Source: a virus
DNA: 26,606 bases
Direction: 5' to 3' (one strand)
Virus record (IMG/VR): IMGVR_UViG_3300017735_002146
Span: 1 to 26,606 of that record
Part shown: piece after piece, positions 3,401-24,037 of the stretch
How the letters are laid out: each line of letters starts with the position of its first letter
Numbering within the stretch: the stretch's first letter is position 1
Program-made: the position numbers and the translations under genes
Notes under the pieces: generated by a model
What the model was told of the DNA's origin: nothing
The model's database searches: none
The model's input: the letters and a program-made list of their open reading frames with translations, nothing else

Positions 3401-3797
3401 TAAAGATGAAACAAATTTAACAGCAGGTTTTTCTCCAGGTGAAATAGTTTTTCAAGATTTGGGAGATGGAACAATAAGTATTAGTGGATATACTAATGTA
3501 TATAATCCTAATTCTACTGACATAAGTAGGCAATATACAAGACAACCTATGAATGCTGCTATAATAAAAAAAGGTAACATAAATTATGCAGCTGATTTAA
3601 ATAGTAGATTTGTAAAGTTACAGCAAAACTTTAAAGAACTAGATAGATTAAATAATTTAGCCATTTATCAGGTAAGAGCAAAACAATTATCTGAAACAAA
3701 GTTTATTGAAAATTATATATCAAATAACCCTGGTTCTACTATAGAACAAGCAAAGGATATGTATAAGCAAGCTAAGAATTATAAACCACAACAATAA
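471..3797 (+). CDS. Putative virion-internal (cargo/ejection) protein, 1108 aa
   Basis: Large hydrophilic protein without a signal peptide or clear membrane segment, directly upstream of the virion RNA polymerase gene. Residues about 5-45 hold an aromatic Pro/Tyr/Phe-rich opening (DIKPFTPDYKFL) that runs into a predicted helix, a style I associate with internal virion proteins of crAss-like phages. Residues 201-215 read DAGKDGVMGTPDDRV, a spaced Asp/Gly loop of calcium-binding type. Residues about 300-470 are mostly helical with charged heptad-like stretches. Residues about 760-1030 contain more Gly, Thr and Ser and look beta-rich. The last 60 residues are helical and end KPQQ. The ATG at 471 is the natural start, since it sits just after a candidate promoter. 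There is no Shine-Dalgarno sequence. The gene ends with a single TAA 9 bases before the next ATG, in the same frame as the giant gene that follows. The role as packaged cargo or ejection protein is inferred from context; a tail or capsid component is the alternative. Confidence 0.6.
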   Translation: MANYIKGEKNYYPDIKPFTPDYKFLSAALDARENKYNAGWQATNDLYSRVYSDLSHSDNKEFQQQFIENLAPELSRISGLDLSLQTNVDAAKSVFAPFFEDEAVVKDIVYTSTYKKELQRANQFADSPDPRVRELYNPVGIKNMQYRMQEFQEADRNQLINMPLPKYVEDADLTQYAQEYLRGLGLEGKGFTQKKDHFTMDAGKDGVMGTPDDRVVNRWIITDTNGKLIEGDAYRRVMTDLTDDPRVQEFYKAKAYVASMDFATQGVQDGSIKTISEGLSMWSDAEVKRVALANSERYNSLDNEIKRIVQQTTSWGNFGKLNGLTPAEQNLVGQSLSEAEQLRVNLSNLLKVNEFANTPDKDDQALINKAYSLNSNYNISQDLQSAAYNYSRENAETVVRENDYVLNEDKHKFALQEIAAKYNADSALKDQQAAIDANMEILKSQLKASEASNLRSLTEQAQEGGVIDYSDPRANLNVIVDNEVANNADPYDTNSELIAKDGQNILLEKARLLGQMFKARYPDQQTFTVTLDGEMLNLSPSDITNRLLKPKPIIDGTSVTDDPNKLMYETDILRMYEEQSKWFKNKDAVIAQHTPTFVKPGSQYDTMYKLLFGNDPNNPESLGLDLRENLYLQRIEKYDNELYNKALSAEEAMLNGNDEWKIEMIKANYPKPYVEENGIKRFMTFSEYQKVFKDQALSGKIKNFDVTGLFGNENAGSDREDWTRISTTGSRKDGTYYQNVVIDEAAINGKSKALWQAYADQINNSYETIGGNSYLSLTAGYSPNAPWGNIGFVPTMSATGSVKPEAGSAMDKVLGTALNQLASSTADPETRVSFLPAPTDIKDFNNFNIEAGVDLSEEDNVIAKKIFSSLQNRATKGEFTMTYYPNLGATKVDDEDRNPMGGYKIDNFSTTFKNEIKKIYKDDESFAAWTRVMNQGVLMVFDRSGNKDINPNNLNIIQGSSYIEQMMNLSNTQSFSYKDETNLTAGFSPGEIVFQDLGDGTISISGYTNVYNPNSTDISRQYTRQPMNAAIIKKGNINYAADLNSRFVKLQQNFKELDRLNNLAIYQVRAKQLSETKFIENYISNNPGSTIEQAKDMYKQAKNYKPQQ

Positions 3798-3806
3798 CTA
3801 AAGTTT

Positions 3807-6800
3807 ATGGCAGACGAGAATATAAAAATGCCTCAGCCTGATTATGATCTTAAACAGAGAATAGCACAGGACGCAGTAGATGTAAATCCAATAGATACAT
3901 CATTACCTTATCAGAGCATAGAAGATTTAATTCCTGACATGCGTAATGAAGTAAGTGATGAGTATGATAGAAGTATATCCATGTATAAAGGTCTTATGGA
4001 TAATATATCACCATCTACATTAGCTAATATATCAGCTGGTGCTAATTCTTCTGTTGTAAATGCTGCTCCTCCTATTCCTACAGAATTAGGTTCTGCATCT
4101 GCCTTTGATGAAATTTGGCAAACACCTTTAGAAACAAGTGTTGAGCTTCCCAATCCTATTTGGGCAAATGCTAAGACAATTAATTTTGACAAGATATATC
4201 CTACAGATGTATTTAGTGATATAGGATTTACTCCATATGCAGATATGGATCAAATCTTTAATAAAAATGAGACATCCGCTGATTACTTAACTAGATTTAC
4301 ACCTGCTTTTAAGAGTTTATTTAGAAGTGGTAGATTTGCTAATTACAGATCAATAGCTGATGCATTTAGTGGTGATTATACAAGTGCTCCAGATCTTGAG
4401 GGTGCAACTACTATGGAAGATGCAATGAGATTAGGTGGTAGTAGTACAGGTAGTTTAGGTGGTTTTATAGGAAACACTGCATTGAACTGGGCTTATTCTG
4501 CAGGTATAGTTTATCAGATTGCATTAGAAGAAGTAGCTGCTGCAGGTATTGCAGCTGCAAGTTCTTTACCATCAGGTGGTAGTTCATTGGCAGCATTTGG
4601 TGCTTTAACTTTAAAGAACTTAGCCACCCTTACAAGAATACCTAAGACAATAGCAAATGGTTTTAAAGCTTCTTATAACCTAGTAAAAAACTTTGATAAT
4701 ATAGCTTATGCTAAAAAGTTTTATGAATTTGCTAGAAGTGGTCAAACTTTAAGAAATATAGGCCGTGGAGGACTACAGCTTATATCTCCTGAGATGGCTC
4801 ATACAATAAAAAATTGGAAGACTACAGGTAATACTTTTCAGAATGCTTATAATATAGGAAAGAATACGCAAGTATTTGGTGCATTTTATAGAGACATGAG
4901 AATGTATAATGCGGCATTAGCTGAATCTAAAATGGAAGCAGGACTAGTTTATAATACTGTTTTAGAAAATGGTATGAGATATGCTAACTTTAGATCTGAT
5001 GGTAATGGTGTGTCACCAGGAGAGATGAAAAAAATTCAATTAGCTGCATCTGAAGCATCTTGGAAAACGCTAGCACCTAACTTTGCAATAATATCAGCAT
5101 CCAACAGGATTGTATTTAAGAATGTATTTGGGAGTTGGGCAAGAAAATTAAATCAAGGGGCAACTACTCAGTTAAGTAGAATGTTAAGGGTTGGACCTGG
5201 TAAATATGCAAAGAAAAGCAAGTATATGCTTAAGTCTATTCCACAAGAAATTAAAGCGGGATTTAAATTAGGTGCTTGGAAAGGAGTTGCAAAAACTTCA
5301 GGTGGTTTGATGTTAAGGTATGGTGCTAGTGGTCTTGTTGAGGGTACACAAGAAGTATCTCAAGAAGCAATATCAGCTGCAGTAGGAGGATACTATAGTG
5401 CAGCATTAAGAGAACCTACACAAGGTGGTGCTCTTGCTATGTCTGGATTCTATGGTGCTGCTGGTAAAGAAATATTTACTAAGCAAGGATTAGAAACATT
5501 TGCATCTGGATTTTTAATTGGTGGTATGATGGGACCATATCAACAAGTCTTATTTGAAGGGGTACCTGCTATTTTTAGTACTGCACGTGCTAAAGTTGCT
5601 AATAGCAAATACTTTGATCCAAGCGGAGATAAACAAGTTGTTGATTATGTTAAACAACAAAGACAACAGCAAGAAGCTGTAATTGATGATGTAATAGCCC
5701 AAGCTAATAAGATGGGTACGCAGTTAGAGCAACTTGATTTACTATTAGATCCTGCTAAAATGAGTGCTGCATTGCAGGACCAAGAAGCAGGTATGGCAAA
5801 CTTATCTATTGCTTTAAATAATAAGTATGATTATCTCAACGGTAGAAACTTTACACGCTTTGAAAATTTATATAGTAAGTATAAAAATGGTACCATGGGT
5901 CTATATAGAGATATGGTTACTGATTTTTCTAAAATGTCTGATACCGAACTAGCTGAAGCATTTGATAAAAAAGATTTTGGTAGAAGTCCAGAAAAGTTAA
6001 GAAAACAATTTATAGATGAGTTAAATAGAATAAATGAATTTGGTGAAAGAGTAGCATCAAAGTCAATGGATGAAATGTTTGAATCAAAGAAATTTGATCT
6101 ATCTGAGTATGATCAGTCAAGTAAAGGGTATAGAGATGCCGTGTTTCATAACAGAGCTGTTGATCAAGCAAAGATGTTGTATATATTTTCTAAAGAATCA
6201 TTTATAGATGCAATAAAAAGACAAGCTGATATAGAACAGTCTTTTGAAAATGAGCCTATTTTTACAAAGCAAAAGTATGGAGACGTAAGAGTTCTTGTTA
6301 ATGCAGAAAGCATTGATACAGAAATAAAAATGCTTACTAAAGAAATCAAAGCTAAAGAAGAAGCTGGTGTGCCAGCCTCTGAACTTAAGAAAGATAAAAG
6401 AAAGTTAAAAGATTTAAAAGGATATTATGCTATTTTAACTGACCCTAAAAATCTAACTAAGAAAGGTTTCTTTAATAGATCAAAGACAAAAGCAATTAAG
6501 GGTGCATTACAAACTTATTTAAATGGTATTGCAGGTGATAAGTCTGATTATGTTAATCCAGAAGTAGTTGAGACTTTATTAGAAAAATTAATTGATCATC
6601 AGGCACTACAAGAAGATGCCTTTGCATTTTCTCAAACAGTTAACATTATGGCAAACCCAGAAGTTACTGCTGAGATTGTTCAAAGGAATGTAGAGTATTT
6701 TGAATATTTATTTAAAAATAGAAAAGAAATATATAGACATCAAACAGAACAATACTTAGAATCAGATAAAAAAAATAAATTAATAAATGCTATAGCTTCA

Positions 6801-9800
6801 TATGATGTTTACATGAAGCCTGAACTAATCAGAGATTTTTTATCTGGTGAAATAGGAGTTGAGGGTTTATATGAGGGTTTAAATAAAGGTGACTTTAGCA
6901 TTGATGGTAGAGCTCTTGGTGGTGCCATACAGTTAAATGAAGACCAAGATCTACAGCAAAAGATAATTGGTGAAATATTAACTTATAAACTTTTAATAGA
7001 AAAAGAAAAAGATGTTAGAGATATTGAATCTAATAAAAGCACAGAGCAACAGATAGATGTTGAAGAAACTTTACAGGATGCAGGTGTAGATGATATACAA
7101 ATAGGAGATACAACTAGATCACCTATGTTAAAGAGTATACTTGAAACAGAGTACCGTAAATATAAAGAATCTGCATTTACTAAAGATGCAAAAGAATTTG
7201 CAGATTGGAGAGTTTCAGATGATGGTACAAGAATTAAAACTGCATATGATGCACTAAAAAGAGTATGGGGTAAAGGATATGATATTTTTGTAACAGAAAA
7301 TGGTCAACAAGTATCACGTAGAAGAGTACCATCCCAGAAAGATTTAAATACAGAAAAAGGATTTCAAGATTATTTAAATAGTAAAGTAGCATTAGAAGAT
7401 CCAACAGTTGTGGATATACTTAATGCATTAGATCTAACAATGGATATATTTACTACTGCAAATAGTCAAACTGTATCTAGATCAAAACCTCCTGTAGCAG
7501 AAGGTGTAATGTTTGACATTACAGAAGTAGTAACTGATGGTGGATCATTTTATAAGATTACAGATAAACAAGGAGGTAGCTTATCACAAGCCCAGTTAGA
7601 TATTATATCAACAGATATAAGAGAGACAGGTACTTTTACAGATTTATCTAAGGCTAAAAGATTATTGGATATACTTGATAGAGAAATATCTGATGGTTCT
7701 ACATTTATGTTTGATGGACAAGCCGTGTCAAAAGGTATGTCTGTATATGATAAAAACACAGGTGAAGAATTTAGAATAAATAGTACAGCCAATAAGGGAG
7801 GTATGATTAGTATTGTTCCTTCTGAGTTTTACACTGATGACTATAAGACAAGATACAACAATAGTAAACCTGTAAGTGAATTAGATTTCTTTGTTAATTA
7901 TGAATTAGAAAAATTATCTTTTGATACGTTACCAACTAATACGTACAAGTTATACTCTGATAGAGTAGCCAAAGCATACACGCCTTTATCACCAGAAGCT
8001 TATAAGTTTATTCTTAATTTATTGACACCTGTTGATTTCCAAAATTTAATTGTGGACATCCAAGAGAATGAAATGATAAATGAGCCTATTAAGGATGATA
8101 GGTTTTATGGTAATGATCAAAGTAAAGCTAATCCATATATTAAAAAACAAAGAGAGAGATATACTATTGCTCTTAAGTTAAGCAAAGATCAGACTGTAGA
8201 TTTTAATAAACTACTAACAGACAACAAGCTACCTATAATAGAAGGTAAATTTGTAAATGAAAGAGGTGAAGGTACTATTGCTTTCTTGCCTAATGATTCT
8301 TTATACTTTGTTGATGCTAGAGGTAAAGTTGTTGTTCCATCAGCTATGACAACTGATTATGCTAAAAATATAATTATACCTTCAAGCAATGATCTAGGTA
8401 TGCAAGCTGCATTAGATCAATTCAGTAATGATTATGATACACAGGCAGTTCTTGTTTCATTTGCTAATGATATGATATCTAAGGATCAGACTGTAGGTAC
8501 TTTAGCAGAAGGATTAAAGATTACAAGAAGTGATGGTATTCCTGCTTATAAAAAAGGAACCAACCCAGAAATTTCATTAAGTCAATTATCTCAAAGCACC
8601 ACTACAGATGGGGCTATAATTATCTATGATATAAAAAGAGATTCTGCTGGTAATATGATAGGTGATGAACCTACAATTATATCTAATTTAAAATCTGATG
8701 CTAAAATTGAATTAGCAAATAGAATAGAAAATAATCTTAAGCAGGCAGGTCTTTGGAATAAAATGATAAGCGGTGATAAGACTGGTCCAAATGGAGGTTA
8801 TACTGATAGATACATAATGCCTATTGAACAGCCTAATGGGTTAATGACATTAGCAACTGCAAAAGCAATTAGAGTAGAAGAGAATACTGTAATTAAAATG
8901 TTTAATGATTTATTACAGCAAGGAAGTGTGGCTGCTAAAGATAACATGACTACTAAGAATGGTAGGAAAGTTATTAATGACAAAGGTTTTAATGATGAGT
9001 TCAAAGTAAAGTTTATTGAAGATTATGGTGAATTTTTTATTAGTGGGGCAAAAGGAGTAAATGTAACTATAGATGTTGCACCCGATGGAGCATTGAGAGC
9101 AGATCTATTTAATAAATATACAGGTAAAAAAGGTAAAGTTTATTATAATGCAGCTGATCAACAAAAGGCAGGAACTACAATACAGCATTTAGAAAGGTTT
9201 ACTGAAAAGATTATTAAAGATCCAAAAGGAATAGAGGTTGGTGTAGAGACTTTAGGTATAAATAACTTTAGAAAGTCAATACCATTAGATGCTTCTGTAG
9301 ATATGTTAATGGAAGATTTAGTCACTAAGCTAGGTCCAGAAATTAGAACAGGTCAGTATATTAATGTTGAGGCAAGTGCTGGTGCTATACAAGCTACAAA
9401 AGATAAGGGTATATTCTTAGCTAGACCTAGAACAGAACTTGAGCCAGATAAATTAAAAAGAGTAGAAGATACTGAAGAAAGAAGGGAAGATCCTGCTAGA
9501 GAAAGAGCCAGAGCAATTACTAATCTTGGTGATAAGATAAGTCAAGAAAATGTTGAGAAAGCATTTCAAAAGTCTGAAGATGATACCATATCTAGTGAAG
9601 CATTCTTAGAATTTACTAATAATGGTGTAGTAGAAACTAAAGTAATACAATCTATTGCTGATAAAATTAAAACTGGCCAACAACTTTCACAAAGAGAGAA
9701 AGCAATACGTCAAGCTAAGAGTCAAGAGATTGAAGATCTATTAAAAGCTACAGTTACTAAAGATCAAAAAAATGATATTGACCTTACTTTAATTGCACAA

Positions 9801-12800
9801 ACTCCTATAGATGCAATAAATAATCAGATAGCTGAAAGAGAATCAGAGATATCTGAACAAGTAGGTGAAAAGAAAAAGGTAAGAGCATTAAGAAAAGATA
9901 AAATATATCAAGACTTATTAAAGCAAAGAGAGGACTTGATTGGTCCAGCTAACAAAATCTTATCTCCTAAGTTATCAAAAAGAGATGTAGAAGACATTAA
10001 TATATTTATGGAGTGGGCTAAAACAAACTTGCCTTCATTTATTAATATAGCTGATATTGAATCTTTAGGCAATAACATGAAAGCTGGTGGAGTTAGAGTT
10101 GGGGCATTTGCTTTAGATCTGTCTTCTGTAAGTGGAGGACTAAGAGCAAGTGGTACATTATATACTGGAGCATCTAATCCTTTTAGGTATCATGAAGCTT
10201 TTCATGGTGTATATAGAATGCTACTTACACCACAAGAACAAAAAAGTTTATTGTCTTTTGCTAAGAAACAAAAGAGAGAATCACTTAGGTCAGAAGGCAA
10301 ATCAATTTCAACTGAACTAAAAAAGTTCAGAAACTCTGCAGACACTTATGCTAACATGTCTGATATAGAATTAGAAAACAGATACTATGAAGAGTACATG
10401 GCGGATCAGTTTGAAATATTTAAAACTAACCCTAAAGAAACAAAAATAGATGCAGAAGTTAAATCATTCTTTACAAGAATAATAGAATGGTTTAAATCAT
10501 TATTTAGTACATACAATAAAAATAAACTGCAAACATTGTTTGAGAATATTGATTCTGCAAAATATGCTCAAGCATCAGTAGTTGCTAATGATTTTACATT
10601 AGATCCAAGCCCACAAGTAATTATAGCTAATGCTATATTGCCTTATGAAGGTTTGCAGATTAATGGTAGTAAAGGTTATTTATATTTAGATAGTAACATT
10701 GCTAATAATTTAATTAGTAGTATGGCTGCTAGTTATGTTGGTAGAAAAAATGAAAATATAGATCCAGAAATAAGTAATGCAGATATATTTGAAGATGTAC
10801 TAGAGGATTTTGCTTGGCTATATAATGTAACAAACCCAATCAATAGTAAATATAATTCTTCTCAGGAAGCTTCTAATATAGCTGCTATTGAGCAACTTGA
10901 AAGAATACATGATGCACTTACATTTAATGCATCAGAAAAGATTGAAGATAGCCCAGTATATAAAGCTGTATTTGAAGTTTTAGAACTTATAGATGTACAA
11001 CAACAAATCATTGACAACAATATTGATCAGTATGAAAACAATGAAGGATTAAGAAATGTAACTCAGTTTGGTAAGGAAGCATACATGAGTGGAGGACTGG
11101 CATCTTTACCAACATACATAAGACAATATCTTTCTACTATAACAATGCCTTACACAGATGCATTTGGTAATGAGCAATTAGAAAGTGGAGAGAAATTAGT
11201 TATACCAATAAACTCTTTTAAAACTTACAACGGTATAATTAAATCTGTTAAGAATGAAACAGATCCTTTAAAGATACTACAACGCATGTATACATTTAGT
11301 GGTAATAACCCTAATACTAAAGCTGCAGTAGAAAGTATATTTAATGATATAGGAATAAATTATCATGATGTATCTGAGATAGCTGATATACAACTACCTC
11401 AGCAAATTAAAAATCCTTTGTTATTTAATCAAATTACAAAAGGGTTTACTAACTATAAAGTAAATTGGATATTCTTACAACAAGATAATACTAATGAAGT
11501 AATATCTTTTTCAGCAGCTGAGAGAGATGACACACATACTCAAAATGAACTATGGGGCCAAGCTTACACTACTAAGTCTTTAGATTGGAAAATAAATAAA
11601 GAAAAGAAAAAAGTTGCTACAAGATCAGTTAATGCTATTTATGATGAGCTAATCCAACCAGAAGGATATGAGGATGTTGCTCTAGATAACGTATCTAAAA
11701 AATTAGCACAAGATTTATTTGAGGGTGTAGGTATTAAGTTAAGTCCATTGTATGTTAAGTACAGTATATTGTCTGCCTCAAACCAAACAAAAACTAGCAA
11801 TCAAGAATCTATACTTCAATTTAATAATGAAGTTAAGCCTATTCTAGGAGAAGATATGTTTTGGCTACAAGACATTATTAAAGAGGGTGGAGATTTATTT
11901 AATTCAGAAAATGATGGGGCAATTGCAAGATTAAAAAAATTAGCTATTAATAATGCATTGCTTGATGAAACAGTTGGTCTGTCAGTATTTAGAAATGTAA
12001 ATGGTGATTTAGTTAATGCACATCAGAAGCCTACGTTTCATTTAGAAAAAGTTTATAATTTAAATAAAGAGACTGAGATAAATAGATTAGAATCAGATAA
12101 GTTTTTAGAAAACAATTATCTATTAAATAGTGAAGAATTCTTAAATATGTCAGAAGCTAACCAGCTACAAATTTTAAGGTTGTCTGGTTTAAAAGAAGTA
12201 AAGACATTAGATAGAAGTACCAATCTAGATTCATATCAAGATGGTGTTATAGGTACAACAGAGTATGGCAGTTTTACACCTAAACAACTTACTACATCTA
12301 TTATAAATAATTACTTGTTTGATTATAACTCTAGGAGTAACACTTTAAAAACTAAAATGGATTCTGCTGCAGTAGCACCAATCTTAATTAGGATAATGGA
12401 ATCTTCTAATACAAATGATCAAGTATTATTACCTGTTGTAAAAGCAGTGGATGAAGGTTTAAGAATATCTCCTGACTACTTAGGTCATATATCTGATTTT
12501 ATAGAGAATGAGTATAATAGAATTGTCAGAGAAAATAGTGAAGAAGGAAATTTACCTTTTCAAGAAATTACTACTAAGACAGGTGATGTAATACAGATCC
12601 CAAAAACAATAGAAGGTTACAATGTTCCAGATCAGGATGGTTTAATGAGAATGAATCTTATGTTTAATGCAAAAGATTTAATCTCCCAAGAGCTAAAAGA
12701 TTCACTGGAGGTATCTGCTATACAAGAAAACCCACCTTCTTTTGATAAGGCAGTTAAAGAAGCTTTAGGTAGTCAGAGTATAAACACAATAATAGAAGCT

Positions 12801-15800
12801 CAGCTTGATAAAAAGTTTGAATCTTTTATGGAGATGGTAAATACTTTAGAAGTAGATAGTAAAGTATCTAGACTTTTAGAGAAAGGTTTATTAGATGGAG
12901 TTGAAGGGGCTGTAGCACAACAAAAAGCAAGAGCAGCATCTAGAAAACTCAACTTAACAGATAATAAAACCCATAACTTAAAACAAATATTCTTAAATGA
13001 TTATTTAAACACTAAGTCATTAAATGAATTATTATTAGGTGATCAAGCTGTAATACTTGAAGATTCTATAAAGCAAATTAAAAGAGCTAAAGGACAGAAT
13101 GCTGCTGGAGACAGTATATATTCTCCAGTACCTAATCCTGAATTTGGTGTATTTGAAAGTACTGAAAATATAAATGCTATAATATTAAATGAGCCAACAA
13201 TATTTTCTGAGTTCAGTGGTCAATCAATAGATAGTGCAGATGCACAAGTATTTACAACACTCAAGTTTCATAGACATGCACAATCCTCATTAGGAAATTT
13301 AACAAGAGCTGGAGCACTGGCATTAGACAAAATTGAGGATGGCACACCTCTTACTGCAGAAGAGTTATATGGACCTCAAGGTTTAGCTAAAACTAATCAA
13401 ATGCTGAACTCTAAGAAGTATGTTTACTTTGATGGTAAGACTTATGTAAAGTTTTCTGCTATTGCTTTAACGGAGGATCTTACAAAAAATAATCCTGATC
13501 TAAATAGATTAAGATTAAACATGGAAGCAATGGAAAGAAACTTAGGTGATATTACTTTTGCTGGACCAAAGAGTGCTTTTAAAATGTTAAAGACTAATGT
13601 ACAATCATTAGGTAGTGATATAATAGAACCATCAATACAATTAGATGCAAGATATTTTAGAGAGCAAGTAAAAACAAAAACCAATAAAGATATAATAACA
13701 GAGCAATCTCAAATAAAAGCTTTGGCTACATCTGAACAGATAGATAGCACACCTATACAAATAAAAGGAATGCCCAATGTTAAAAATATTGGTGATGTAA
13801 AAAGGCTGTATAATGAGACGTTAAGTAGAAGGATTGTACTAAAGTTTAAAGACAAAAGAAATCTTATATATACTTTTGATGGTTTAATGTCTGAGTTTTC
13901 ATTAAGCAAGAGTAAAGATTCTATTACACCTAACCTACAAGTCTTTTTAAAGTATGCACTAAACTCATTAAAAGCATCTAAGGCTAGCACAAATCTTATG
14001 GAGTTTTTTACTGTTGATCCTACAACTGGTGAAGTAAAATACAATATAAACAATCCTATTAGTATTGCTAAAGCTGAACAGTTATTTATGAGTTACTTTA
14101 GTCAAGGTGTATTCCAAGAGAAAATACCTGGTCACGGTTTAGCTTTAGTATCAGATAAAGGCTATACTGTACTTAGACGTGTCTTTAGTATGGAGGATAA
14201 CGGCAGGTTAGGTAGAAATGAAGTTATAAGAGGTAGTGTACCAGAAGGTGAAACCGTTTTAAATCTTGAAGTAGATAGCCTAGGTGCTGACTTTAAGTTC
14301 CCATCTGATGGAAAAGGAATTTTAGTAAGAGATAGATTAAGATATCAGTTAGCTGAGTATGATCAGAATGGAAAACGTACTGGACAATATTATAGTGAAG
14401 GTGTATTTGCTGCACATAGTGCTGATATATATAGTGAATTACAAAACAAACCTAATGTTGCTATACCAGATTCTATAGGTAAAATGTTTGCTGTACGTAT
14501 TCCTTCACAAGATAATCATTCAAGTATGAATGTTAAACTTGTAGATTTTATGCCTGCATACTATGGGTCTTCTGCAATGTTTCCTGCTGAACTTATTGAG
14601 ATATCAGGAGCAGACTTTGATATAGATACAGCATACGTACAAATAAAAGAATCTTACTATGATCAAAATGATAAGAAGTTTTATGCCTATGGAGATACAA
14701 AAGGTAGAGAATATTCAGATTACGTAAGATATATAAATCAAGCTGTAAATAAGGATACAATATATTCACAGGCTGCAGCTTCTTTTACTGATCAAGGTAG
14801 TAAGTTAGAAGATTCATACACTGATGCTGAACTTATAGACTCTGATTTTTCAGATAGAGCATTAAAGGCTGCCTCAAGATTAGGACTTCCAATCACAAAA
14901 TCACAGTATCAAAATTATGTAAATAAAAATGGTGAGCCATATCAAGCACCTTTAAATAATAATGTCTTAGATTATAAGTATGCACTAATGGGTAATGAAG
15001 CTGTAAAAGAAATTTCAGTTACACCTGCTACATTAGTTGCTATAGAACAAGCCTATGATGAATTAAAAACTGCAGCACCAGAATATGTTGCTAGATTAGA
15101 TAATGAAAACATTGATGTTGATAGTATTACAGGTAAAGCAATATCTTTTGAAGTAAACAAAGGAGCTGCTATTGGTAGAGCTGTATCACCAAACTTATAC
15201 TTAAGTTTATTAGGTGAGTATAAAATTAATGTAGGAGGTTTAGGATTTAACTTAAGAGGGGAAATATATGATAGTTTTGGTACAGAGCTAAATACTTATG
15301 GTAATAGACTTCAAGATGAGATATCTTCTATAATAACAATGCTTACAGATAACTCAAAAGAAAACTATGTTGCTAAATTAGGAATGCATCCATCAGCAGT
15401 TGGTCTTGCAGTAAATGCAGTTGCCTTAGGTGTACCTTTATCAGATGCTGTTTTATTATTAAATGGTAAAATAGTTAGAGACTTATTTGCAGAAGCTAAT
15501 AACAAAGTAGATAAGTTTGATGCAAGCTTTACAACATTAGTGAAACAACAACTTAAAGGTTTAAAGAATGTTAAAGCTAACGCAGAGGTTGGATTAGAAA
15601 CAATAGAAAAATCTGTAAGAGGAGAAGAGCTTACTAAAAAAGAACAAAAATCTATACTGCTTGTTATAAGCAATTTAAATACTATATCAGGTTTTACTGG
15701 TAAAATGGCTTCTATAACTTCTATGTCTGGCCGTGGTATTGGATCTAACTTTAGTGATATACAAAAAAGACTTGATGATTTTTATGATATAGGTGTAATC

Positions 15801-17756
15801 CAAAGAGTAAATGGCCCTGTACAAAAACCTATAATAGATATTACTCCTATACTAGAAAGCAGTTGGGTTAAATCAAATATAGATGTATTTAATGAAATTG
15901 CTGGTAATTTAATTCCTGCCACATTTATTTCAGGTACTCCGGCATTTAATGAAATATATAATAAGATTTCTAGAAATTTAAGCAATAACAAAAAAACGTT
16001 TACTGTATTAGATCAACAGAAAGTAAAAAGAGATATGCTTTCTTTCTTTACTATACAAGCTTATAGACAAAAGACTAAAGAGTCTGAAGTAAAAGATGGT
16101 GCAACACTTACAAATCAATTACTATATCCTAATGAATTTGATAATTCAATATTTGAAGCAGTTAATAGATTGAGTCAAGCAGATAAAGGGAACTTCTTCT
16201 TAGAAAGCTTTGTTACTATGGTACCTATGTTTGCAGAAACAAACATGACAGGTATGAATTTATTACAAGCTAACACATGGAGAGGATTAGATAAAGAACA
16301 AAAGGTTGATTTACAAACTTCATTTACTAAGCTTTACGGCAACCCTCTTTTAAGAAAAGATGCTATGACCATAGTCAACTACATAATGGTTAAAGATGGT
16401 TTACAGGCAGCTAAGGGAAGTTTATTGGATGCTATTTCTCCATTTGTGATGGATGAATACTTACAACAAATTAACAATGTCAGTGATGTTTTTCTAACTA
16501 ATAAAGGTTGGTTAGAAACATTTGGTGCTGAGCGTGATGACTTAGTTGATTATTTTGAGAACGGTTATTTTAAATCTGCAACATCTAACTCAAAAGTTAA
16601 AACCGTTATGGTTAATGATCCTTTAGATATAAACTCACGTTACACATCAAAAGAAGGTAATGTAATTTATACTCTAGACAAAGATGATAACGTAAATGCA
16701 TTACCTAGATACATAAATTTTGCAGATGCTATAACTGGTTTTAGCCAGCTATATGTACTAGATAATATAGATAAGAAAAAGGCAAGTTATGTACAAAGCC
16801 AATTAGAAGGTTCTTATTATCAAAATGGTATTGGGTTTATGTTTGGAAAAAGACCTACTACTTTAGAGAATAGAGACAACATCAGGAATAGAGGTGAAAT
16901 GAAAAGTGCTTACGGTGCAGAATCATTTGGTGCAATGACAATAGAGCAGATGGCACCTCCTGTAAATTCACCACAAAATCAAGCATTAGCAAATGAAAAT
17001 GCAACGTTTGAAGCAACTGAGAATGAGATTACCTTTACTGCAGAAGATACAGCAAATGCTATTAATATTGCTGACACAGGTGCATTAGATAATCTCTTAG
17101 GCTTGAAAAAACAAAATAATAAAGTTGCAAAGCCTGTTGAATCTAACATAAGTAATTTAGTTTCAGCATGGTTAAAAACTAAAGAAGGTTCTTTAGAAAA
17201 TCAAACTGCTGAGCAATCAGCAAATAAATTTGCACTAGAGTATGCAAAAAGAAATCCAGTAGGAGAAAGAGATGGTAGAACTGTAGATCAAATTGCAGAA
17301 GACAACAAGAAGTTAAGCAAAGATGAAAGAAAAGAAAATGCTAAACAAATAGGTGCAGACTTATTTAATACGATAGCCCAAGGAATGAATGTTAGCAGTG
17401 CAGTATTATCTGAAATTAATAATCAAACTAGAGCTGAGCTAAATGTTGTAGATGAAGCAACAGGTATATTAGATGCACAGGCAGATATGCCAATCTTAAA
17501 TGAAAGTGAACAACAAATGACGTTAAACTTTGATCAAGAGATTAGTGATCAATATCCTACAATTACTTCATTTTATAATAGTATCTTTACAGTGCCTGGT
17601 GTTGGAGGAGATATAGTTGCTCAAAGAGATATATTAGAAAATAATAATTTAGATTCTCTTGAAGCTATGGTAGAGTTTTATAATAGTCCAACTACTGAGT
17701 TTGAATCAGAGCAGGCTTTTGAGGATTATGTAAAGAAATGTATATTAGGAATTTAA
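3807..17756 (+). CDS. Giant crAss-like virion RNA polymerase polyprotein with metallopeptidase domain, 4649 aa
   Basis: Multidomain protein of about half a megadalton. Residues about 210-275 and 486-595 are Gly/Ala-rich and hydrophobic and include EGTQEVSQE at 512, as in phage ejection proteins that contact membranes. Residues about 600-2050 are long, mostly helical and unassigned. Residues about 2060-2240 form a zincin metallopeptidase: HEAFH at 2129-2133 and a likely third zinc ligand in EEYMADQF near 2195. Residues about 3100-3900 form a two-barrel RNA polymerase: DAQ at 3145, candidate catalytic lysines K3215 and K3259, RIPSQ at 3564-3568, and the metal-binding loop ADFDID with aspartates 3603, 3605 and 3607. 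A helical extension and a low-complexity Gln/Asn/Glu-rich tail follow (about 4290-4649). Known crAss-like phages package this polymerase and eject it to transcribe early genes. The peptidase may cut this protein or its neighbours, which is inference. Start: ATG 9 bases after the previous stop, with no good ribosome site. The polymerase assignment is strong; the rest of the layout is only partly assigned. Confidence 0.88.
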   Translation: MADENIKMPQPDYDLKQRIAQDAVDVNPIDTSLPYQSIEDLIPDMRNEVSDEYDRSISMYKGLMDNISPSTLANISAGANSSVVNAAPPIPTELGSASAFDEIWQTPLETSVELPNPIWANAKTINFDKIYPTDVFSDIGFTPYADMDQIFNKNETSADYLTRFTPAFKSLFRSGRFANYRSIADAFSGDYTSAPDLEGATTMEDAMRLGGSSTGSLGGFIGNTALNWAYSAGIVYQIALEEVAAAGIAAASSLPSGGSSLAAFGALTLKNLATLTRIPKTIANGFKASYNLVKNFDNIAYAKKFYEFARSGQTLRNIGRGGLQLISPEMAHTIKNWKTTGNTFQNAYNIGKNTQVFGAFYRDMRMYNAALAESKMEAGLVYNTVLENGMRYANFRSDGNGVSPGEMKKIQLAASEASWKTLAPNFAIISASNRIVFKNVFGSWARKLNQGATTQLSRMLRVGPGKYAKKSKYMLKSIPQEIKAGFKLGAWKGVAKTSGGLMLRYGASGLVEGTQEVSQEAISAAVGGYYSAALREPTQGGALAMSGFYGAAGKEIFTKQGLETFASGFLIGGMMGPYQQVLFEGVPAIFSTARAKVANSKYFDPSGDKQVVDYVKQQRQQQEAVIDDVIAQANKMGTQLEQLDLLLDPAKMSAALQDQEAGMANLSIALNNKYDYLNGRNFTRFENLYSKYKNGTMGLYRDMVTDFSKMSDTELAEAFDKKDFGRSPEKLRKQFIDELNRINEFGERVASKSMDEMFESKKFDLSEYDQSSKGYRDAVFHNRAVDQAKMLYIFSKESFIDAIKRQADIEQSFENEPIFTKQKYGDVRVLVNAESIDTEIKMLTKEIKAKEEAGVPASELKKDKRKLKDLKGYYAILTDPKNLTKKGFFNRSKTKAIKGALQTYLNGIAGDKSDYVNPEVVETLLEKLIDHQALQEDAFAFSQTVNIMANPEVTAEIVQRNVEYFEYLFKNRKEIYRHQTEQYLESDKKNKLINAIASYDVYMKPELIRDFLSGEIGVEGLYEGLNKGDFSIDGRALGGAIQLNEDQDLQQKIIGEILTYKLLIEKEKDVRDIESNKSTEQQIDVEETLQDAGVDDIQIGDTTRSPMLKSILETEYRKYKESAFTKDAKEFADWRVSDDGTRIKTAYDALKRVWGKGYDIFVTENGQQVSRRRVPSQKDLNTEKGFQDYLNSKVALEDPTVVDILNALDLTMDIFTTANSQTVSRSKPPVAEGVMFDITEVVTDGGSFYKITDKQGGSLSQAQLDIISTDIRETGTFTDLSKAKRLLDILDREISDGSTFMFDGQAVSKGMSVYDKNTGEEFRINSTANKGGMISIVPSEFYTDDYKTRYNNSKPVSELDFFVNYELEKLSFDTLPTNTYKLYSDRVAKAYTPLSPEAYKFILNLLTPVDFQNLIVDIQENEMINEPIKDDRFYGNDQSKANPYIKKQRERYTIALKLSKDQTVDFNKLLTDNKLPIIEGKFVNERGEGTIAFLPNDSLYFVDARGKVVVPSAMTTDYAKNIIIPSSNDLGMQAALDQFSNDYDTQAVLVSFANDMISKDQTVGTLAEGLKITRSDGIPAYKKGTNPEISLSQLSQSTTTDGAIIIYDIKRDSAGNMIGDEPTIISNLKSDAKIELANRIENNLKQAGLWNKMISGDKTGPNGGYTDRYIMPIEQPNGLMTLATAKAIRVEENTVIKMFNDLLQQGSVAAKDNMTTKNGRKVINDKGFNDEFKVKFIEDYGEFFISGAKGVNVTIDVAPDGALRADLFNKYTGKKGKVYYNAADQQKAGTTIQHLERFTEKIIKDPKGIEVGVETLGINNFRKSIPLDASVDMLMEDLVTKLGPEIRTGQYINVEASAGAIQATKDKGIFLARPRTELEPDKLKRVEDTEERREDPARERARAITNLGDKISQENVEKAFQKSEDDTISSEAFLEFTNNGVVETKVIQSIADKIKTGQQLSQREKAIRQAKSQEIEDLLKATVTKDQKNDIDLTLIAQTPIDAINNQIAERESEISEQVGEKKKVRALRKDKIYQDLLKQREDLIGPANKILSPKLSKRDVEDINIFMEWAKTNLPSFINIADIESLGNNMKAGGVRVGAFALDLSSVSGGLRASGTLYTGASNPFRYHEAFHGVYRMLLTPQEQKSLLSFAKKQKRESLRSEGKSISTELKKFRNSADTYANMSDIELENRYYEEYMADQFEIFKTNPKETKIDAEVKSFFTRIIEWFKSLFSTYNKNKLQTLFENIDSAKYAQASVVANDFTLDPSPQVIIANAILPYEGLQINGSKGYLYLDSNIANNLISSMAASYVGRKNENIDPEISNADIFEDVLEDFAWLYNVTNPINSKYNSSQEASNIAAIEQLERIHDALTFNASEKIEDSPVYKAVFEVLELIDVQQQIIDNNIDQYENNEGLRNVTQFGKEAYMSGGLASLPTYIRQYLSTITMPYTDAFGNEQLESGEKLVIPINSFKTYNGIIKSVKNETDPLKILQRMYTFSGNNPNTKAAVESIFNDIGINYHDVSEIADIQLPQQIKNPLLFNQITKGFTNYKVNWIFLQQDNTNEVISFSAAERDDTHTQNELWGQAYTTKSLDWKINKEKKKVATRSVNAIYDELIQPEGYEDVALDNVSKKLAQDLFEGVGIKLSPLYVKYSILSASNQTKTSNQESILQFNNEVKPILGEDMFWLQDIIKEGGDLFNSENDGAIARLKKLAINNALLDETVGLSVFRNVNGDLVNAHQKPTFHLEKVYNLNKETEINRLESDKFLENNYLLNSEEFLNMSEANQLQILRLSGLKEVKTLDRSTNLDSYQDGVIGTTEYGSFTPKQLTTSIINNYLFDYNSRSNTLKTKMDSAAVAPILIRIMESSNTNDQVLLPVVKAVDEGLRISPDYLGHISDFIENEYNRIVRENSEEGNLPFQEITTKTGDVIQIPKTIEGYNVPDQDGLMRMNLMFNAKDLISQELKDSLEVSAIQENPPSFDKAVKEALGSQSINTIIEAQLDKKFESFMEMVNTLEVDSKVSRLLEKGLLDGVEGAVAQQKARAASRKLNLTDNKTHNLKQIFLNDYLNTKSLNELLLGDQAVILEDSIKQIKRAKGQNAAGDSIYSPVPNPEFGVFESTENINAIILNEPTIFSEFSGQSIDSADAQVFTTLKFHRHAQSSLGNLTRAGALALDKIEDGTPLTAEELYGPQGLAKTNQMLNSKKYVYFDGKTYVKFSAIALTEDLTKNNPDLNRLRLNMEAMERNLGDITFAGPKSAFKMLKTNVQSLGSDIIEPSIQLDARYFREQVKTKTNKDIITEQSQIKALATSEQIDSTPIQIKGMPNVKNIGDVKRLYNETLSRRIVLKFKDKRNLIYTFDGLMSEFSLSKSKDSITPNLQVFLKYALNSLKASKASTNLMEFFTVDPTTGEVKYNINNPISIAKAEQLFMSYFSQGVFQEKIPGHGLALVSDKGYTVLRRVFSMEDNGRLGRNEVIRGSVPEGETVLNLEVDSLGADFKFPSDGKGILVRDRLRYQLAEYDQNGKRTGQYYSEGVFAAHSADIYSELQNKPNVAIPDSIGKMFAVRIPSQDNHSSMNVKLVDFMPAYYGSSAMFPAELIEISGADFDIDTAYVQIKESYYDQNDKKFYAYGDTKGREYSDYVRYINQAVNKDTIYSQAAASFTDQGSKLEDSYTDAELIDSDFSDRALKAASRLGLPITKSQYQNYVNKNGEPYQAPLNNNVLDYKYALMGNEAVKEISVTPATLVAIEQAYDELKTAAPEYVARLDNENIDVDSITGKAISFEVNKGAAIGRAVSPNLYLSLLGEYKINVGGLGFNLRGEIYDSFGTELNTYGNRLQDEISSIITMLTDNSKENYVAKLGMHPSAVGLAVNAVALGVPLSDAVLLLNGKIVRDLFAEANNKVDKFDASFTTLVKQQLKGLKNVKANAEVGLETIEKSVRGEELTKKEQKSILLVISNLNTISGFTGKMASITSMSGRGIGSNFSDIQKRLDDFYDIGVIQRVNGPVQKPIIDITPILESSWVKSNIDVFNEIAGNLIPATFISGTPAFNEIYNKISRNLSNNKKTFTVLDQQKVKRDMLSFFTIQAYRQKTKESEVKDGATLTNQLLYPNEFDNSIFEAVNRLSQADKGNFFLESFVTMVPMFAETNMTGMNLLQANTWRGLDKEQKVDLQTSFTKLYGNPLLRKDAMTIVNYIMVKDGLQAAKGSLLDAISPFVMDEYLQQINNVSDVFLTNKGWLETFGAERDDLVDYFENGYFKSATSNSKVKTVMVNDPLDINSRYTSKEGNVIYTLDKDDNVNALPRYINFADAITGFSQLYVLDNIDKKKASYVQSQLEGSYYQNGIGFMFGKRPTTLENRDNIRNRGEMKSAYGAESFGAMTIEQMAPPVNSPQNQALANENATFEATENEITFTAEDTANAINIADTGALDNLLGLKKQNNKVAKPVESNISNLVSAWLKTKEGSLENQTAEQSANKFALEYAKRNPVGERDGRTVDQIAEDNKKLSKDERKENAKQIGADLFNTIAQGMNVSSAVLSEINNQTRAELNVVDEATGILDAQADMPILNESEQQMTLNFDQEISDQYPTITSFYNSIFTVPGVGGDIVAQRDILENNNLDSLEAMVEFYNSPTTEFESEQAFEDYVKKCILGI
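9984..10526 (+). other. Zincin-type metallopeptidase domain within the giant protein (about residues 2060-2240)
   Basis: The active-site helix YHEAFHGVYRML has the HExxH motif with H2129, E2130 and H2133 intact. About 60 residues later, NRYYEEYMADQF supplies a glutamate (E2195 or E2196) suited as third zinc ligand, as in gluzincins. Upstream, the Trp-containing helix FMEWAKTNLPSFI and a short beta-rich stretch ending in LYTGASNPF lead into the helix. A Trp/Phe-rich helix (IIEWFKSLFS) follows. Self-processing of the giant protein or cleavage of neighbouring virion proteins is plausible but not shown. Confidence 0.75.
13104..15506 (+). other. Two-barrel virion RNA polymerase domain (about residues 3100-3900)
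   Basis: ADFDID at 3602-3607 corresponds to NADFDGD of the cellular beta-prime subunit, the loop that holds catalytic Mg2+. About 40 residues upstream, RIPSQ at 3564 lies where beta-prime has its R-x-P-T-L motif. Upstream of that, DAQVFTTLKFHR (from 3145), YVKFSA with K3215 and SAFK with K3259 look like the beta-type barrel, which provides the nucleic-acid-binding lysines. Downstream, LTDNSKENY with D3848 and K3851 matches a segment that I recall as conserved in crAss-like polymerases. Both barrels lie in one chain, as in the phi14:2 virion polymerase and QDE-1-like enzymes. The exact domain borders and the choice of lysines are estimates. Confidence 0.85.
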
Positions 17757-17765
17757 TAGAAAGCA

Positions 17766-20700
17766 ATGAGTAGATGTCATAACAAAAATACAGCAGAATA
17801 CCAGTCTTTAAAACAAGAGTATGGTACAGATGCGGCTACAGGAAATATAATTGATCAGTATCAAGCATTTACAAAAACTGATACAGTACCTACTGTTGCA
17901 GAAGCAATAGAATTTATTACTAATAAACAAACACTTTATAACTTAAAGCAATTAGATTTTGGTCAGTCATTACTAAACAACTTAAGAAGACTTAGCATTA
18001 TACATAGCTTTCAAGGTAAGTATTTTATAAATAATACTGATAGAGATACTTTACAACCAAGCAATGAATTAGTTGAAGCAAATAGAAAAAGGTTAGAAAA
18101 ATATTTAGATATAAATAATATTCCAGCTGAGTCAGTGCTTATTTCTAAAACACCAAAGACATATACTGTTAGTATAGACAGCACTATGTTTAGTCCAATA
18201 GATATGCTTGAGTCATCAAGAGCTTGGGACAAACCTAGAACAAGACATGTAGTTATGCATTTAATGAAACTGATTCCTGGATTGAATGTTTCTATGAAAT
18301 CAGTAAGTGAAGCAAAAGCACTTTATGAAAAAATACCACAGTGGAGAAAGTCAAAAGTTCCTTTTGATCAAATTAATTCATTTTATGTAGAGAATAATGT
18401 TATTCTTATAAAGGGTAGGGTTACCGATGAGATAGCAATAGAAGAGGTGCTTCACCCATTTGTGGAAGCAGTAAGGGTAAGTAATATAAAATTATTTGAA
18501 GGTTTATTATCAGAAGCAGGTAAAGCATTTCCTGTTATGAAACAGCAAATAGATGATGCTTATAATAGCAAAAGAAATGTTAGTGCGGTAGATAGAGAGA
18601 TGGAATTAATTACCCAAGCATTATCTAGACATTATAATAATGAGTATGAAGAAACTCCACCACAAAGTTTTATGGATAAGATCCGTGAATTATTAGAGTG
18701 GTTGTCAGCAATAATTAAAAACTTAAATGAAGTAATTACCGGTAGAACTATCAATATAGATAATATATCTGAACGAGCTAGCTTATCTGATATTGCTAAA
18801 TTATTAAATACAACAGGTATAGTATTTAATATAGATACATCACAAACTAACGGTAAAGTAAAATATAACTTATCTCCTAGAAAACAAAAGGTGGTAGATG
18901 GAGTAAAGGGAAAATCAAATGAATTACAAAAACGTATTATTGATAGACTAACACATAAAGTAAATGCTTCAAAACAAGAAGCTGATTCATTATCTGTTAG
19001 TGCAGGCCCTGAAGTAGCTATACAAAATAGTGATCCACTAGTTATTTTAAATAAAAAAGATGGTAAATTTTACAACCTAACAAATAGAAAACAAGTTAAG
19101 TCAGTCTCAGATGTTGTTGGTAGAAAGAAAGATTCTCAAAAGACAATTGAAGTTAAACAAGATATAAGCTTAATGTTAGATGCAATTGCAATTGATGAAT
19201 CATTTGAAAGCATTCAAGACAAATTTGTTGGTTTAACACCTGAGTTTGCTCAAAAAGCATTTAATAATCTAGTAGAAGAATTACATACTACAATGAACTC
19301 AACTGATAGAATGCTAACAAATGTAGTATTCTATGATCAATTAACTGACACAGCAGGTGTTGCTGATGTGGTTATATTAAATAGAGTTGGTCATTTTAAA
19401 ATATTAAAGCTACAAATTAATGAGGCTAATGTGATGACCAAAAATCCAAAGTCTTGGATTAAAGGTGTATTAAAACAAGACATAGAAAAAAGCTCATACT
19501 ATCAAGATAAAATTGACTTAGAAGAAGGAAACTTATTAAAGGATGATAAATTAACCTTGTCAGTTCAAGATCAGGTAGAGGTAGGTTTAGTTAGAAGAAT
19601 GGCACAAAATCAAGGATATGATATTGTGTATGGAGATAATGCTGTACAAAGTTTAATATTAAGCTATAAAGGTAAAGCATTACAATTTCATGGTCATATA
19701 TCTCATCCTCAATTTCAAAATGATAATCACGTAGATTCTGTAATACCATATGCTGCATATACTGTATCAGATGATGAAGTAAAGAAATTATCTAAAGATT
19801 TAGAAGAAGGACTTTATGATATAGACAGAAAGGATTCTGAAATAGAAACCCTAGCTGAGCAAGTTGACCCATCATTATATCCTGCAGAAAGCACTATTAG
19901 TGTAGCATTAGATAATTATTATGAAGCTTTAGTGGATGAAGCTAGAGTTAGGGAAATGACTGAAGCAAATATATTTAGTGATAGATCTAAGGCAGATCAT
20001 AAAGAAACAATTGCTAACACGCTAGCATATATTAATGTTGCTAAGGCAGAAGGTCCTGTGGCTCAGTCTGTTGCATATACTAAAATACTTAGGGACTCAT
20101 TGTCTGAAATGAAAAAGTTTTCTGCTTATGTTGTTGATCCAAAGAATGTTGCTGAAGATCCAAATTATATTAGATATGTAATGAACTTTAATAAGTTCTT
20201 AACCACATTTGATGGGCTTTATTTGATAGAAAACAACACTGATATTAATGCAACACAAAGATCTTTAATAGGTCAGATTAATATTGAACTTGTAAAGCTA
20301 TTAGGTGCACCAACAATAAAAGGAAATGGACAAGGGGAAGGTATAGTAAACAAAGCCATTCTTAATTATGTTCATGATTTGACTTTACAATTGTCTCAAG
20401 ATGGAATGAGCCAAGACAAAAACAACATACTACAGTCACATAGTGGAAAGACATTTACTGTTGATGATATAGAAGATATACTTAAGATGGTTCCAGATGT
20501 TGATGGAGCAGAACTGTATTCAAAAGATCTAGCTACATCAGCTGATTTTCTTTTATCTTCTATGGATAAATTATTTAAAATTAAAAGAATTGAATTTTTA
20601 GATAAAGTTAAGCTTAGAGAAAAGAAACTTAGAGAAGGAGGTGCAGCACTACTTTCCTTAGATACAGAAACAGATTTACAAAAGCTGTATGACTTTATGT

Positions 20701-23623: not shown

Positions 23624-24037
23624 ATGACAACTAAATTATCTATAGTGAGTATAACAGCATTCTGTACGTACCTGTGTACGTACTTTTTTGATTTATCAAT
23701 GGCAAACATGGAACAATACTTAGCTGTTTGTTCAGTATTATGGCTAGACGGAATATTTGGAGTATGGGCTGGCTGTAAAAGAGAAGGGTTTAAAACTTAT
23801 AAAGCATTAAGAATTACTAGAAACACCTTTGTGTGGATAGCTATTCTGACTGTCATCCTTATGGTAGAGAGAGGTTTTGCAGGAACAGGTTGGCTATCCG
23901 AGGTGGTTGTAGTACCTTTCATGATACTACAACTTATAAGTGCTTTGAAGAATGCTTCTATGGCAGGCCTAATAAAGACAGCAGAGCTTAATAAAATTTT
24001 AGATAGAATTGACAATCACAAAGGACTTAGAAAATAG
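23624..24037 (+). CDS. Holin-like membrane protein (phage holin 4 type), 137 aa
   Basis: Small membrane protein with four hydrophobic segments, at about residues 7-24, 32-50, 68-84 and 93-107, and a charged C-terminal tail (LNKILDRIDNHKGLRK). Segment 2 carries WLDGIFGVWAG followed by the basic/aromatic turn CKREGFKTYKALR, and segment 4 ends ISALKNASMAGLI. This order (Asp-x-x-x-Gly in a helix, a basic linker, then a small-residue helix ending near SALKN) fits the phage holin 4 family. Holins accumulate in the inner membrane and open it at a set time, letting endolysin reach the cell wall. No endolysin gene is visible here. The gene sits last in the plus-strand virion block, with a 92-base gap before it and a terminator at its end. 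No Shine-Dalgarno sequence precedes the ATG. Codons 14-22 contain a perfect terminator-like hairpin (separate entry). The family call is from layout and motifs only. Confidence 0.7.
   Translation: MTTKLSIVSITAFCTYLCTYFFDLSMANMEQYLAVCSVLWLDGIFGVWAGCKREGFKTYKALRITRNTFVWIAILTVILMVERGFAGTGWLSEVVVVPFMILQLISALKNASMAGLIKTAELNKILDRIDNHKGLRK
23664..23689 (+). terminator. Terminator-like hairpin inside the start of the holin-like gene (possible attenuator)
   Basis: GTACGTAC at 23664-23671 and again at 23676-23683 form a perfect 8-bp stem with a 4-base loop (CTGT), followed at once by six T at 23684-23689. The unit is self-complementary, so the two copies are direct and inverted repeats at once. It lies 40 bases into the gene and encodes CTY-L-CTY-F in the first membrane helix. 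Both Thr codons are ACG although ACA and ACT dominate around it. It has the form of an intrinsic terminator and could stop transcripts that are not being translated. Confidence 0.5.

Follow-up and report, generated by a model that had tools for sequence, protein, structure and literature searches.

Crass-like phages, which have been called the most abundant viruses of the human gut (PMC10172136), encode a virion RNA polymerase (vRNAP) in a "transcription gene block" of which a figure has been published (PMC7886860). The vRNAP of phage phi14:2 is reported to be packaged in the virion and to transcribe the early genes (PMC7886860), and mass spectrometry placed gp45, gp46, gp47, gp49 and gp50 in the virions of ΦcrAss001 (crAss001 below), whose cargo proteins were proposed to be stored in capsid and tail and to be ejected partly unfolded (PMC10172136). 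According to the authors of a study on Thermus phage P23-45, crAss-like vRNAPs are parts of fusions with large proteins whose function is unknown (PMC10770324), and a review mentions sizes of up to ~6000 aa (PMC10136315). A question not yet settled in phage entry is how such very large proteins can exit via a narrow tail with their order and number kept right. Here, we describe the 26,606-base virus record IMGVR_UViG_3300017735_002146 (positions 1 to 26,606, i.e., the whole stretch analysed, further referred to as the window), in which a single open reading frame (ORF), AB, encodes the first two proteins of such a block as one 4649-residue chain, followed by the gene of a third protein, C.

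Throughout, A stands for the zincin-bearing RNA polymerase (RNAP)-associated protein, B for the vRNAP, and C for the RNAP-associated protein encoded next to it (gp47, gp50 and gp49 in crAss001, respectively). Their counterparts in the window are:

3807..17756, + strand: AB, predicted 4649-aa fusion of a zincin-bearing RNAP-associated virion protein (A) and a virion RNA polymerase (B), based on the ORF, on hhalign matches to crAss001 gp47/gp50 and phi14:2 g066, and on full-length relatives
3807..10376, + strand: A part, ~residues 1–2190, helical in the modelled stretch 131–1130 (approximate boundary, its end being derived from the 6vr4 alignment, in which residue 2292 corresponds to gp66 residue 99)
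10680..17753, + strand: B part, residues 2292–4649, putative two-barrel-type RNA polymerase (VIA to 6vr4; hhalign to g066 and gp50; tblastn)
17739..17741, + strand: codon of Cys4645 (no other cysteine in AB)
17766..23531, + strand: C, 1921-aa putative RNAP-associated protein of the crAss001 gp49 / phi14:2 g065 type (tblastn)
17775..17777, + strand: codon of Cys4 (no other cysteine in C)

Lone cysteines at the facing ends of A, B and C

The only cysteine of AB, not pointed out in the initial annotation, is fifth from its C-terminal end, and the only cysteine of C is its fourth residue, so that the two lie on the ends at which both proteins face each other. Four scans with polymerase-core alignments yielded at least 309 loci, 301 of which had an ORF with a usable motif and 226 of which were distinct at 85%. 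B and C were broken into separate ORFs at 165 of these 226 loci and fused at 33 (L258 by hand), with 28 left unclassed, and among 225 rows A and B were broken at 66 and fused at 127, with 32 left unclassed. Six cysteine-free A+B+C chains were classed manually as fused (L301, L261 and L258 among them having no match to the zincin hidden Markov model (HMM)), and their A homology was checked afterwards. The A/B breaks leave out L079, L082, L099, L155 and L305, whose ORFs were broken or partial, and L055 was excluded by hand because its cysteine-free upstream ORF resembles a cargo protein.

The 33 distinct AB+C pairs of the window type (loci L040–L119; 13 AB ORFs have an intact 5′ end, 20 run into the locus edge, and three are broken fragments) contained 66 cysteines in 204,061 residues, all of them at most five residues from the facing ends. 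Wherever B and C were broken, C carried an N-terminal cysteine (165/165), while the preceding ORF carried a C-terminal one within 10 residues in 161 and within 50 residues in all 165 cases. The same held for the A/B break, with an N-terminal cysteine in 66/66 B proteins and, where the upstream ORF was adjacent, a C-terminal cysteine within 12 residues in 56/56 A proteins (a 12-residue window having been chosen because L193 has its cysteine at –12); under a first, cruder rule these numbers were 58/63 and 45/49. Outer ends seldom had a cysteine, i.e., 1/20 at the N-terminus of A, 1/141 at the C-terminus of C, and 0/32 at the C-terminal end of B+C or A+B+C ORFs. By comparison, 1287 of 113049 internal 10-mers (1.1%) contained one.

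The 18 annotated genomes followed the same rule. A cysteine was found at most 10 residues from the C-terminal end in 15/15 A proteins, in 6/6 separate B proteins (two of which are the downstream pieces of interrupted genes) and in 3/3 AB proteins, and N-terminally, as annotated, in 13/15 B or B+C and 8/9 C proteins. In the remaining three annotated starts, an internal methionine opens the sequence MSC, MSC or MAKSC. None of the outer ends in these genomes had a cysteine.

As a pattern, the facing cysteines are thus strongly supported. As far as our literature search reached, the rule is undescribed: no paper describing it was found by title or by the start of the abstract (an earlier mention being possible), and the word "cysteine" is absent from the main texts of PMC10172136, PMC11054128 and PMC12386605.

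Fusions and shifted breaks as natural experiments

When neighbouring proteins were fused, the cysteines at the joined ends were absent, with an N-terminal cysteine in 3/69 and a C-terminal one (within 30 residues) in 0/33 fused forms. The extreme case is that of eight complete A+B+C single chains, six of which had no cysteine at all in 5005–5642 residues, one of which had one and one of which had three; none of the eight had a cysteine within 30 residues of an end. The tails of these chains were homologous to separate C proteins (best E-values of 7e-63 to 7e-240), and their N-terminal parts matched A proteins or the A part of AB (best E-value 2e-28 or lower).

Moreover, the position of the A/B break differed among loci, lying after the zincin domain in crAss001, just before it in L340, L273, L243, L264 and L247, and ~600–880 residues before it in L329, L332, L334, L234 and L348. 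At all ten of these loci with a shifted break both new ends carried a cysteine, i.e., the cysteines follow the break. On a FastTree tree, whose support values are less trustworthy, the B/C state changed seven times and the A/B state 14 times; independent contrasts pointed in the same direction in 6/6 cases for B/C (p-value of 0.031), and for A/B in 7/10 cases, with none opposite and three without difference (p-value of 0.016). In crAss001, A lies on the strand opposite to B and C, and ~11.6 kb separate the end of A from the start of B; therefore, the pairing tracks the order of the proteins and not the contact of their genes.

Some of the cysteine-bearing starts were also alike in sequence. 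A CPN-type start was present in 50/165 C starts and 9/78 B starts, compared to 2/1212 other cysteines of RNAP ORFs, and the N-terminal stretch of ~40 residues that it opens was similar between some B and C versions (blastp E-values down to 1e-9). This stretch was seen on B in L260, L264 and L243 and on C in L317 and L346. On the basis of these similarities, it looks like a portable coupling module.

Three other accounts of the facing ends were tried and rejected. Trans-splicing by a split intein would find too few residues outside the facing cysteines, which mostly lie at positions –1 to –6 and at residues 2–10. Stop codon readthrough joining AB to C meets a tandem TAA TAG in the window, where AB ends and C begins in the same frame nine nucleotides on (positions 17754–17768); AB and C, or their equivalents, are in frame in 21/33 window-type pairs vs. 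27/132 others. An effect of starts and stops at the DNA level does not agree with the opposite strands of A and B in crAss001.

A proposed disulfide-coupled string

We consider it quite probable that the facing lone cysteines form interchain disulfides that make A, B and C one ejected chain, which is opened by reduction in the host cytoplasm. In this reading, AB is the A+B portion of a crAss-like phage's ejected transcription block, with C encoded by the next gene. Each protein in the A-B-C order would be attached to its neighbour in one of two ways: through a peptide bond, where the genes are fused, or through two lone cysteines, located at the C-terminal end of the preceding and at the N-terminal end of the following protein. 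In the window, A and B would be joined by fusion and AB and C by the pair Cys4645/Cys4, with the disulfide formed in the virion replacing the peptide bond. The coupled proteins might exit portal and tail at least partly unfolded, as one string of fixed order and in a 1:1:1 number, after which the reducing host cytoplasm would open the links and free the polymerase parts to refold. Internal cysteines, of which AB of the window-type loci has none, may have been purged because stray disulfides would block threading. Window-type chains have no other cysteine, and the vRNAP gp50 of coliphage N4 has none in 3500 aa (gp51 and gp52 also being cysteine-free), which would suit a requirement to prevent stray crosslinks before the chain is threaded.

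For crAss001, whose laboratory host is Bacteroides intestinalis, gp47, gp50 and gp49 have masses of 262.4, 276.9 and 154.5 kDa, respectively, so that linked pairs or all three together would amount to ~0.4–0.7 MDa; Bayfield et al. (PMC10172136) describe one reduced and one unreduced sample. The computed tryptic end peptides are CNS at the end of gp47, CITTNSTIEELAAK at the start of gp50, ICGANTLYEL at the end of gp50 and CAIIPQVR at the start of gp49. Linked peptides would have a computed monoisotopic M of 1812.823 (gp47 end with gp50 start) and 1992.017 (gp50 end with gp49 start). Thioredoxin-like genes are annotated near the block in 5 of the 18 annotated loci (L031, L032, L034, L027 and L037), and their products are possible partners for virion thiols.

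The same ends could instead be paired via a shared metal ion or other thiol chemistry, as the data fix which ends carry thiols and not the chemistry between them. However, with one cysteine per end a metal ion would be held by no more than two thiols (no search was made for further ligands at the ends), and disulfides do occur in other ΦcrAss001 virion proteins, having been shown in its tail hub, ring and gp57 proteins (PMC10172136), and we regard this alternative as unlikely. Each cysteine might also be a separate handle, serving as a packaging signal or as an anchor to portal, tail or membrane instead of as a link to the neighbour. Although a lone reactive thiol on a protein end would be a natural anchor, the six cysteine-free A+B+C forms are presumably still packaged, outer ends seldom carry a cysteine, and the cysteines move with the break, all of which makes separate handles quite improbable.

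The initial annotation had suggested that AB is perhaps cut into working parts by its own protease, which would make it a polyprotein processed by the zincin after ejection. The features concerned are:

9972..10586, + strand: putative zincin domain, ~residues 2056–2260 (within the A part, identity to the two most distant relatives peaks in block 2101–2250, at 0.61 and 0.41; gp47 match)
10191..10205, + strand: HEAFH, residues 2129–2133 (HE.F.H invariant in the 31-sequence alignment A5)
10389..10397, + strand: Glu-Glu-Tyr, residues 2195–2197, candidate third zinc ligand (invariant in A5)

The HE.F.H motif and the downstream EEY were indeed invariant in 31/31 aligned sequences, including the window, and lie just before the A/B joint, and in a wider HMM search 133 of 158 matches to the zincin region had an HExxH. 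Neither the Foldseek nor the VIA listings matched a zincin fold for the 1131-residue model of residues 1930–3060, in which the domain was part of a larger model. Self-cleavage finds no support in phi14:2 g067, which has no HExxH, in the A+B+C chains, only three of eight of which keep an HExxH before the polymerase (five having none there), or in the natural A/B breaks, which lie at three different places relative to the zincin. Nothing in the analysis suggests that the zincin cuts the chain, and we judge a self-cleaved polyprotein to be highly improbable. A different-looking HExxH (HEFGH and HEVVH types) was present in the first 600 residues of 53/165 C proteins, where 1.25 are expected by shuffling (e.g., at 149 in L309, 266 in L174 and 107 in L190). 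The last 250 residues of phi14:2 g067 (L012) contain an RRKGIA stretch, which we take to resemble a GNAT acetyltransferase motif.

Least credible of all are homodimers (A-A, B-B, C-C) in a multi-copy capsid store, which would agree with an estimate according to which each virion stores several copies together (PMC10172136) but would leave unexplained why both partners lack their cysteine on fusion and why facing instead of outer ends carry it.

A number of observations count against the disulfide-coupled string. Non-block ORFs of 17 annotated loci (the recoded L035 being left out) had a terminal cysteine in 2/104 cases at the N-terminus and in 9/104 at the C-terminus, i.e., the C-terminal background is not zero. 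In a first control, drawn from the IMG/VR loci and made up of their other ORFs with 400 aa or more, terminal cysteines were even found in 18/63 (N) and 31/110 (C) cases; it was replaced by the non-block ORFs because many of its rows resemble A or C proteins unclaimed by the neighbour rule (as with L200, i.e., crAss001 gp47) and NrdA-like tails. L212, L217 and L260, classed as A+B fused, still begin with a cysteine, and are perhaps misclassed. The pattern is broken in L306, where 537 residues separate the only cysteine of the 5199-aa RNAP ORF from its end and where a C-type ORF is found 2191 nt downstream, possibly because of an extra domain or a broken gene. In four recoded loci, the C-terminal cysteine lies 16–50 residues inside the end. 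Gut members of anoxic hosts keep the facing cysteines, and many also have internal ones (up to 27 in B+C ORFs), which fits the avoidance of stray crosslinks less well. Finally, the stoichiometry and order of A, B and C come from the estimate in PMC10172136, and the disulfide itself is what we infer from the positions of the cysteines.

We lean towards a general form of the disulfide-coupled string, in which peptide bond and disulfide would be interchangeable throughout crAss-like phages, giving a string of up to ~0.7 MDa with ordered tail passage, reductive uncoupling and a portable CPN-type module at the start of B or C. The rule, derived from sequence with 165 B/C and 66 A/B breaks judged and with fusions and shifted breaks as tests, points to covalent, redox-released coupling of ejected proteins, and this could serve as a principle for designing the delivery of several proteins on a single string.

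Reality and domain make-up of AB

The initial annotation had recognised one giant chain with a zincin motif and a virion polymerase of the crAss-like type, and this was borne out. AB is a single open frame (4649 aa, 518.9 kDa) with one HEAFH at 2129 and one DFDID at 3603, about twice the size of phi14:2 gp66. It is not an assembly artefact, since the same full-length ORF (4540–5129 aa) recurs in other IMG/VR contigs, the most distant of which, L024, has 29% identity in the zincin region; in L011, a relative's ORF is interrupted by two nearby shifts.

Using tblastn, AB residues 3201–3900 matched 82 phage records, and among the 40 listed most were named or classified as crAss-like and a few only as "Bacteriophage sp."; the matches included phi14:2 g066, annotated "Catalytic RNA polymerase subunit". 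In hhalign comparisons of overlapping segments, AB 2887–4172 was collinear in pieces with phi14:2 g066 692–1927 (best E-value 5.1e-12), AB 3034–3893 with crAss001 gp50 941–1801 (best E-value 2e-15), and AB 2065–2258 with crAss001 gp47 2100–2295 (E-value 5.7e-10, HEAFH being common to both), next to a weak match of AB 503–721 to gp47 430–665 (E-value 0.0012). The structural model of residues 1930–3060 (predicted local distance difference test (pLDDT) score of 72.8) matched 6vr4 (phi14:2 gp66) in VIA, with 2292–3060 placed on 99–862 (Z 13.1 over 599 residues, compared to Z 4.6 for the next row). Given this homology, AB is best described as a head-to-tail fusion of a gp47-like A and a gp50/phi14:2 g066-like vRNAP B with its joint at ~2190–2290, and gp47 and gp50 of crAss001 total 4753 residues. 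Two double-psi barrels in one chain are implied by homology, and the catalytic loop of the polymerase is:

14613..14627, + strand: DFDID catalytic loop, residues 3603–3607 (invariant in the six-sequence polymerase alignment A1)

Residues 2250–3050, earlier thought to be unassigned and to hide further domains, are thus largely the front part of the polymerase, given the 6vr4 match from 2292 onwards. The hydrophobic N-terminal segments proposed earlier proved weaker than claimed, as no 19-residue window at 210–275 or 486–595 reaches a mean Kyte-Doolittle value of 1.4; nevertheless, six of the ten relatives printed have such a window at ~238–265. The model of residues 131–1130 was helical and weak (pLDDT 61.7), and its top viral structural matches were mostly crAss-like phage proteins at template modelling (TM) scores of 0.2 or less, one of them named "RNAP associated protein fused to zincin protease". 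The N-terminal part might have an ejection role.

Direct searches with AB gave nothing beyond chance against PHROG and Pfam (best E-values 0.036 and 0.053), one chance match against PDB by sequence (E-value 0.89; none with the six-sequence polymerase profile) and no megablast match against phages. Foldseek against PDB reached best E-values of 0.63 and 0.14 for the two models.

Gene architectures in crAss-like phages

Among the 18 annotated genomes, A, B and C were separate in five Steigviridae and the bajarodcaudo virus (the B gene of two of these being split at the DFD loop), eight Intestiviridae and one Crevaviridae had A and B+C, and three Suoliviridae had A+B and C, as in the window. The deposited A+B fusions are those of cr118_1 (gp14, 4946 aa), cr50_1 (4774 aa) and cr4_1 (4491 aa), annotated as "exonuclease V", "DNA helicase" or hypothetical. 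Together with the 102 of 225 distinct loci in which A+B is fused and C separate, these leave little of the earlier impression that the fusion is exceptional; judging from such sequences, it is not new and is ordinary for the order, and the full-length fusion is in part already on record for related phages, i.e., at the level of deposited sequence.

The polymerase gene is split at the DFDxD loop by an insert with a small ORF in L030 (cr116_1, 18672–19513) and L037 (bajarodcaudo virus, 18267–19162), this ORF being annotated as an endonuclease in the bajarodcaudo virus and as hypothetical in cr116_1. Both inserts are probably introns, and three of the four insert-facing ends have no cysteine.

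Neighbouring genes and the phage

The remaining genes of the window lie first on the + and then on the – strand:

31–411, + strand: small ORF, open upstream
471..3797, + strand: 1108-aa protein without cysteine, in the position of a cargo protein, which suggests such a role
23624–24037, + strand: holin-like ORF
24211–26584, – strand: genes of NrdA and NrdB with a few bases in common, convergent with the virion block

Separate ORFs upstream of AB occupy the position of the cargo proteins. The 1108-aa ORF had no family above the cut-off and no phage match in the library and phage searches. C matched 76 records by tblastn, and eight of the ten listed matches were annotated "putative RNA-polymerase subunit"; a scan of genome contigs with C found no relative.

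The window contains no capsid gene, and a crAss-type head protein, portal and terminase are not in this fragment. A window-type contig of 114 kb, G007, matched the crAss001 head protein (E-value 8.9e-6) and portal (E-value 2e-27), and its proteins include ones named portal, terminase large subunit and major head protein in PHROGs. The other seven of the eight contigs matched neither the crAss001 head protein or portal nor the portal of G007. The putative assignment to the order Crassvirales rests on the polymerase block and on this one relative.

Comparison with known systems

The polymerases phi14:2 gp66 (6vr4) and ΦcrAss001 gp50 are like B of the window in their collinear homology, DFDxD loop and kind of gene block, but are encoded by separate genes, while B is fused to A. 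Both have cysteines near both ends (residues 3 and –2 in gp66; 5 and –9 in gp50, plus one internal), the C-terminal one alone being kept in the window. Similarly, ΦcrAss001 gp47 and p-crAssphage gp45 ("putative RNAP associated protein fused to zincin protease") share with the chain of the window an HExxH near the end of A, an A-like position and a C-terminal cysteine; unlike A in the window, they are separate genes, and p-crAssphage gp45 also has two internal cysteines. The closest architecture is that of cr118_1 gp14 and its equivalents in cr50_1 and cr4_1, with HExxH and DFDID in one A+B ORF, a separate C and facing cysteines, although these carry a few internal cysteines and AB of the window none.

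Outside this group, the 5002-aa gp96 of Thermus phage P23-45, a fusion of tape measure and vRNAP, resembles AB as a giant virion protein with a two-barrel RNAP, but it is the tape measure of a long tail and, in the part described, has no protease domain (PMC10770324). Its authors suggest that such fusions couple DNA entry and transcription (PMC10770324).

A further parallel is offered by AB and N4 gp50, both single giant chains. N4 gp50 is an ejected vRNAP and differs in belonging to the T7-like polymerase family. In their mode, the A-B-C proteins would resemble the disulfide-joined two-chain proteins that bacteria translocate, which cross a membrane while linked and whose disulfide is reduced in the target cytosol. 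No homology is claimed; here, the partners would be virion proteins placed end to end, with the disulfide alternating with gene fusion.

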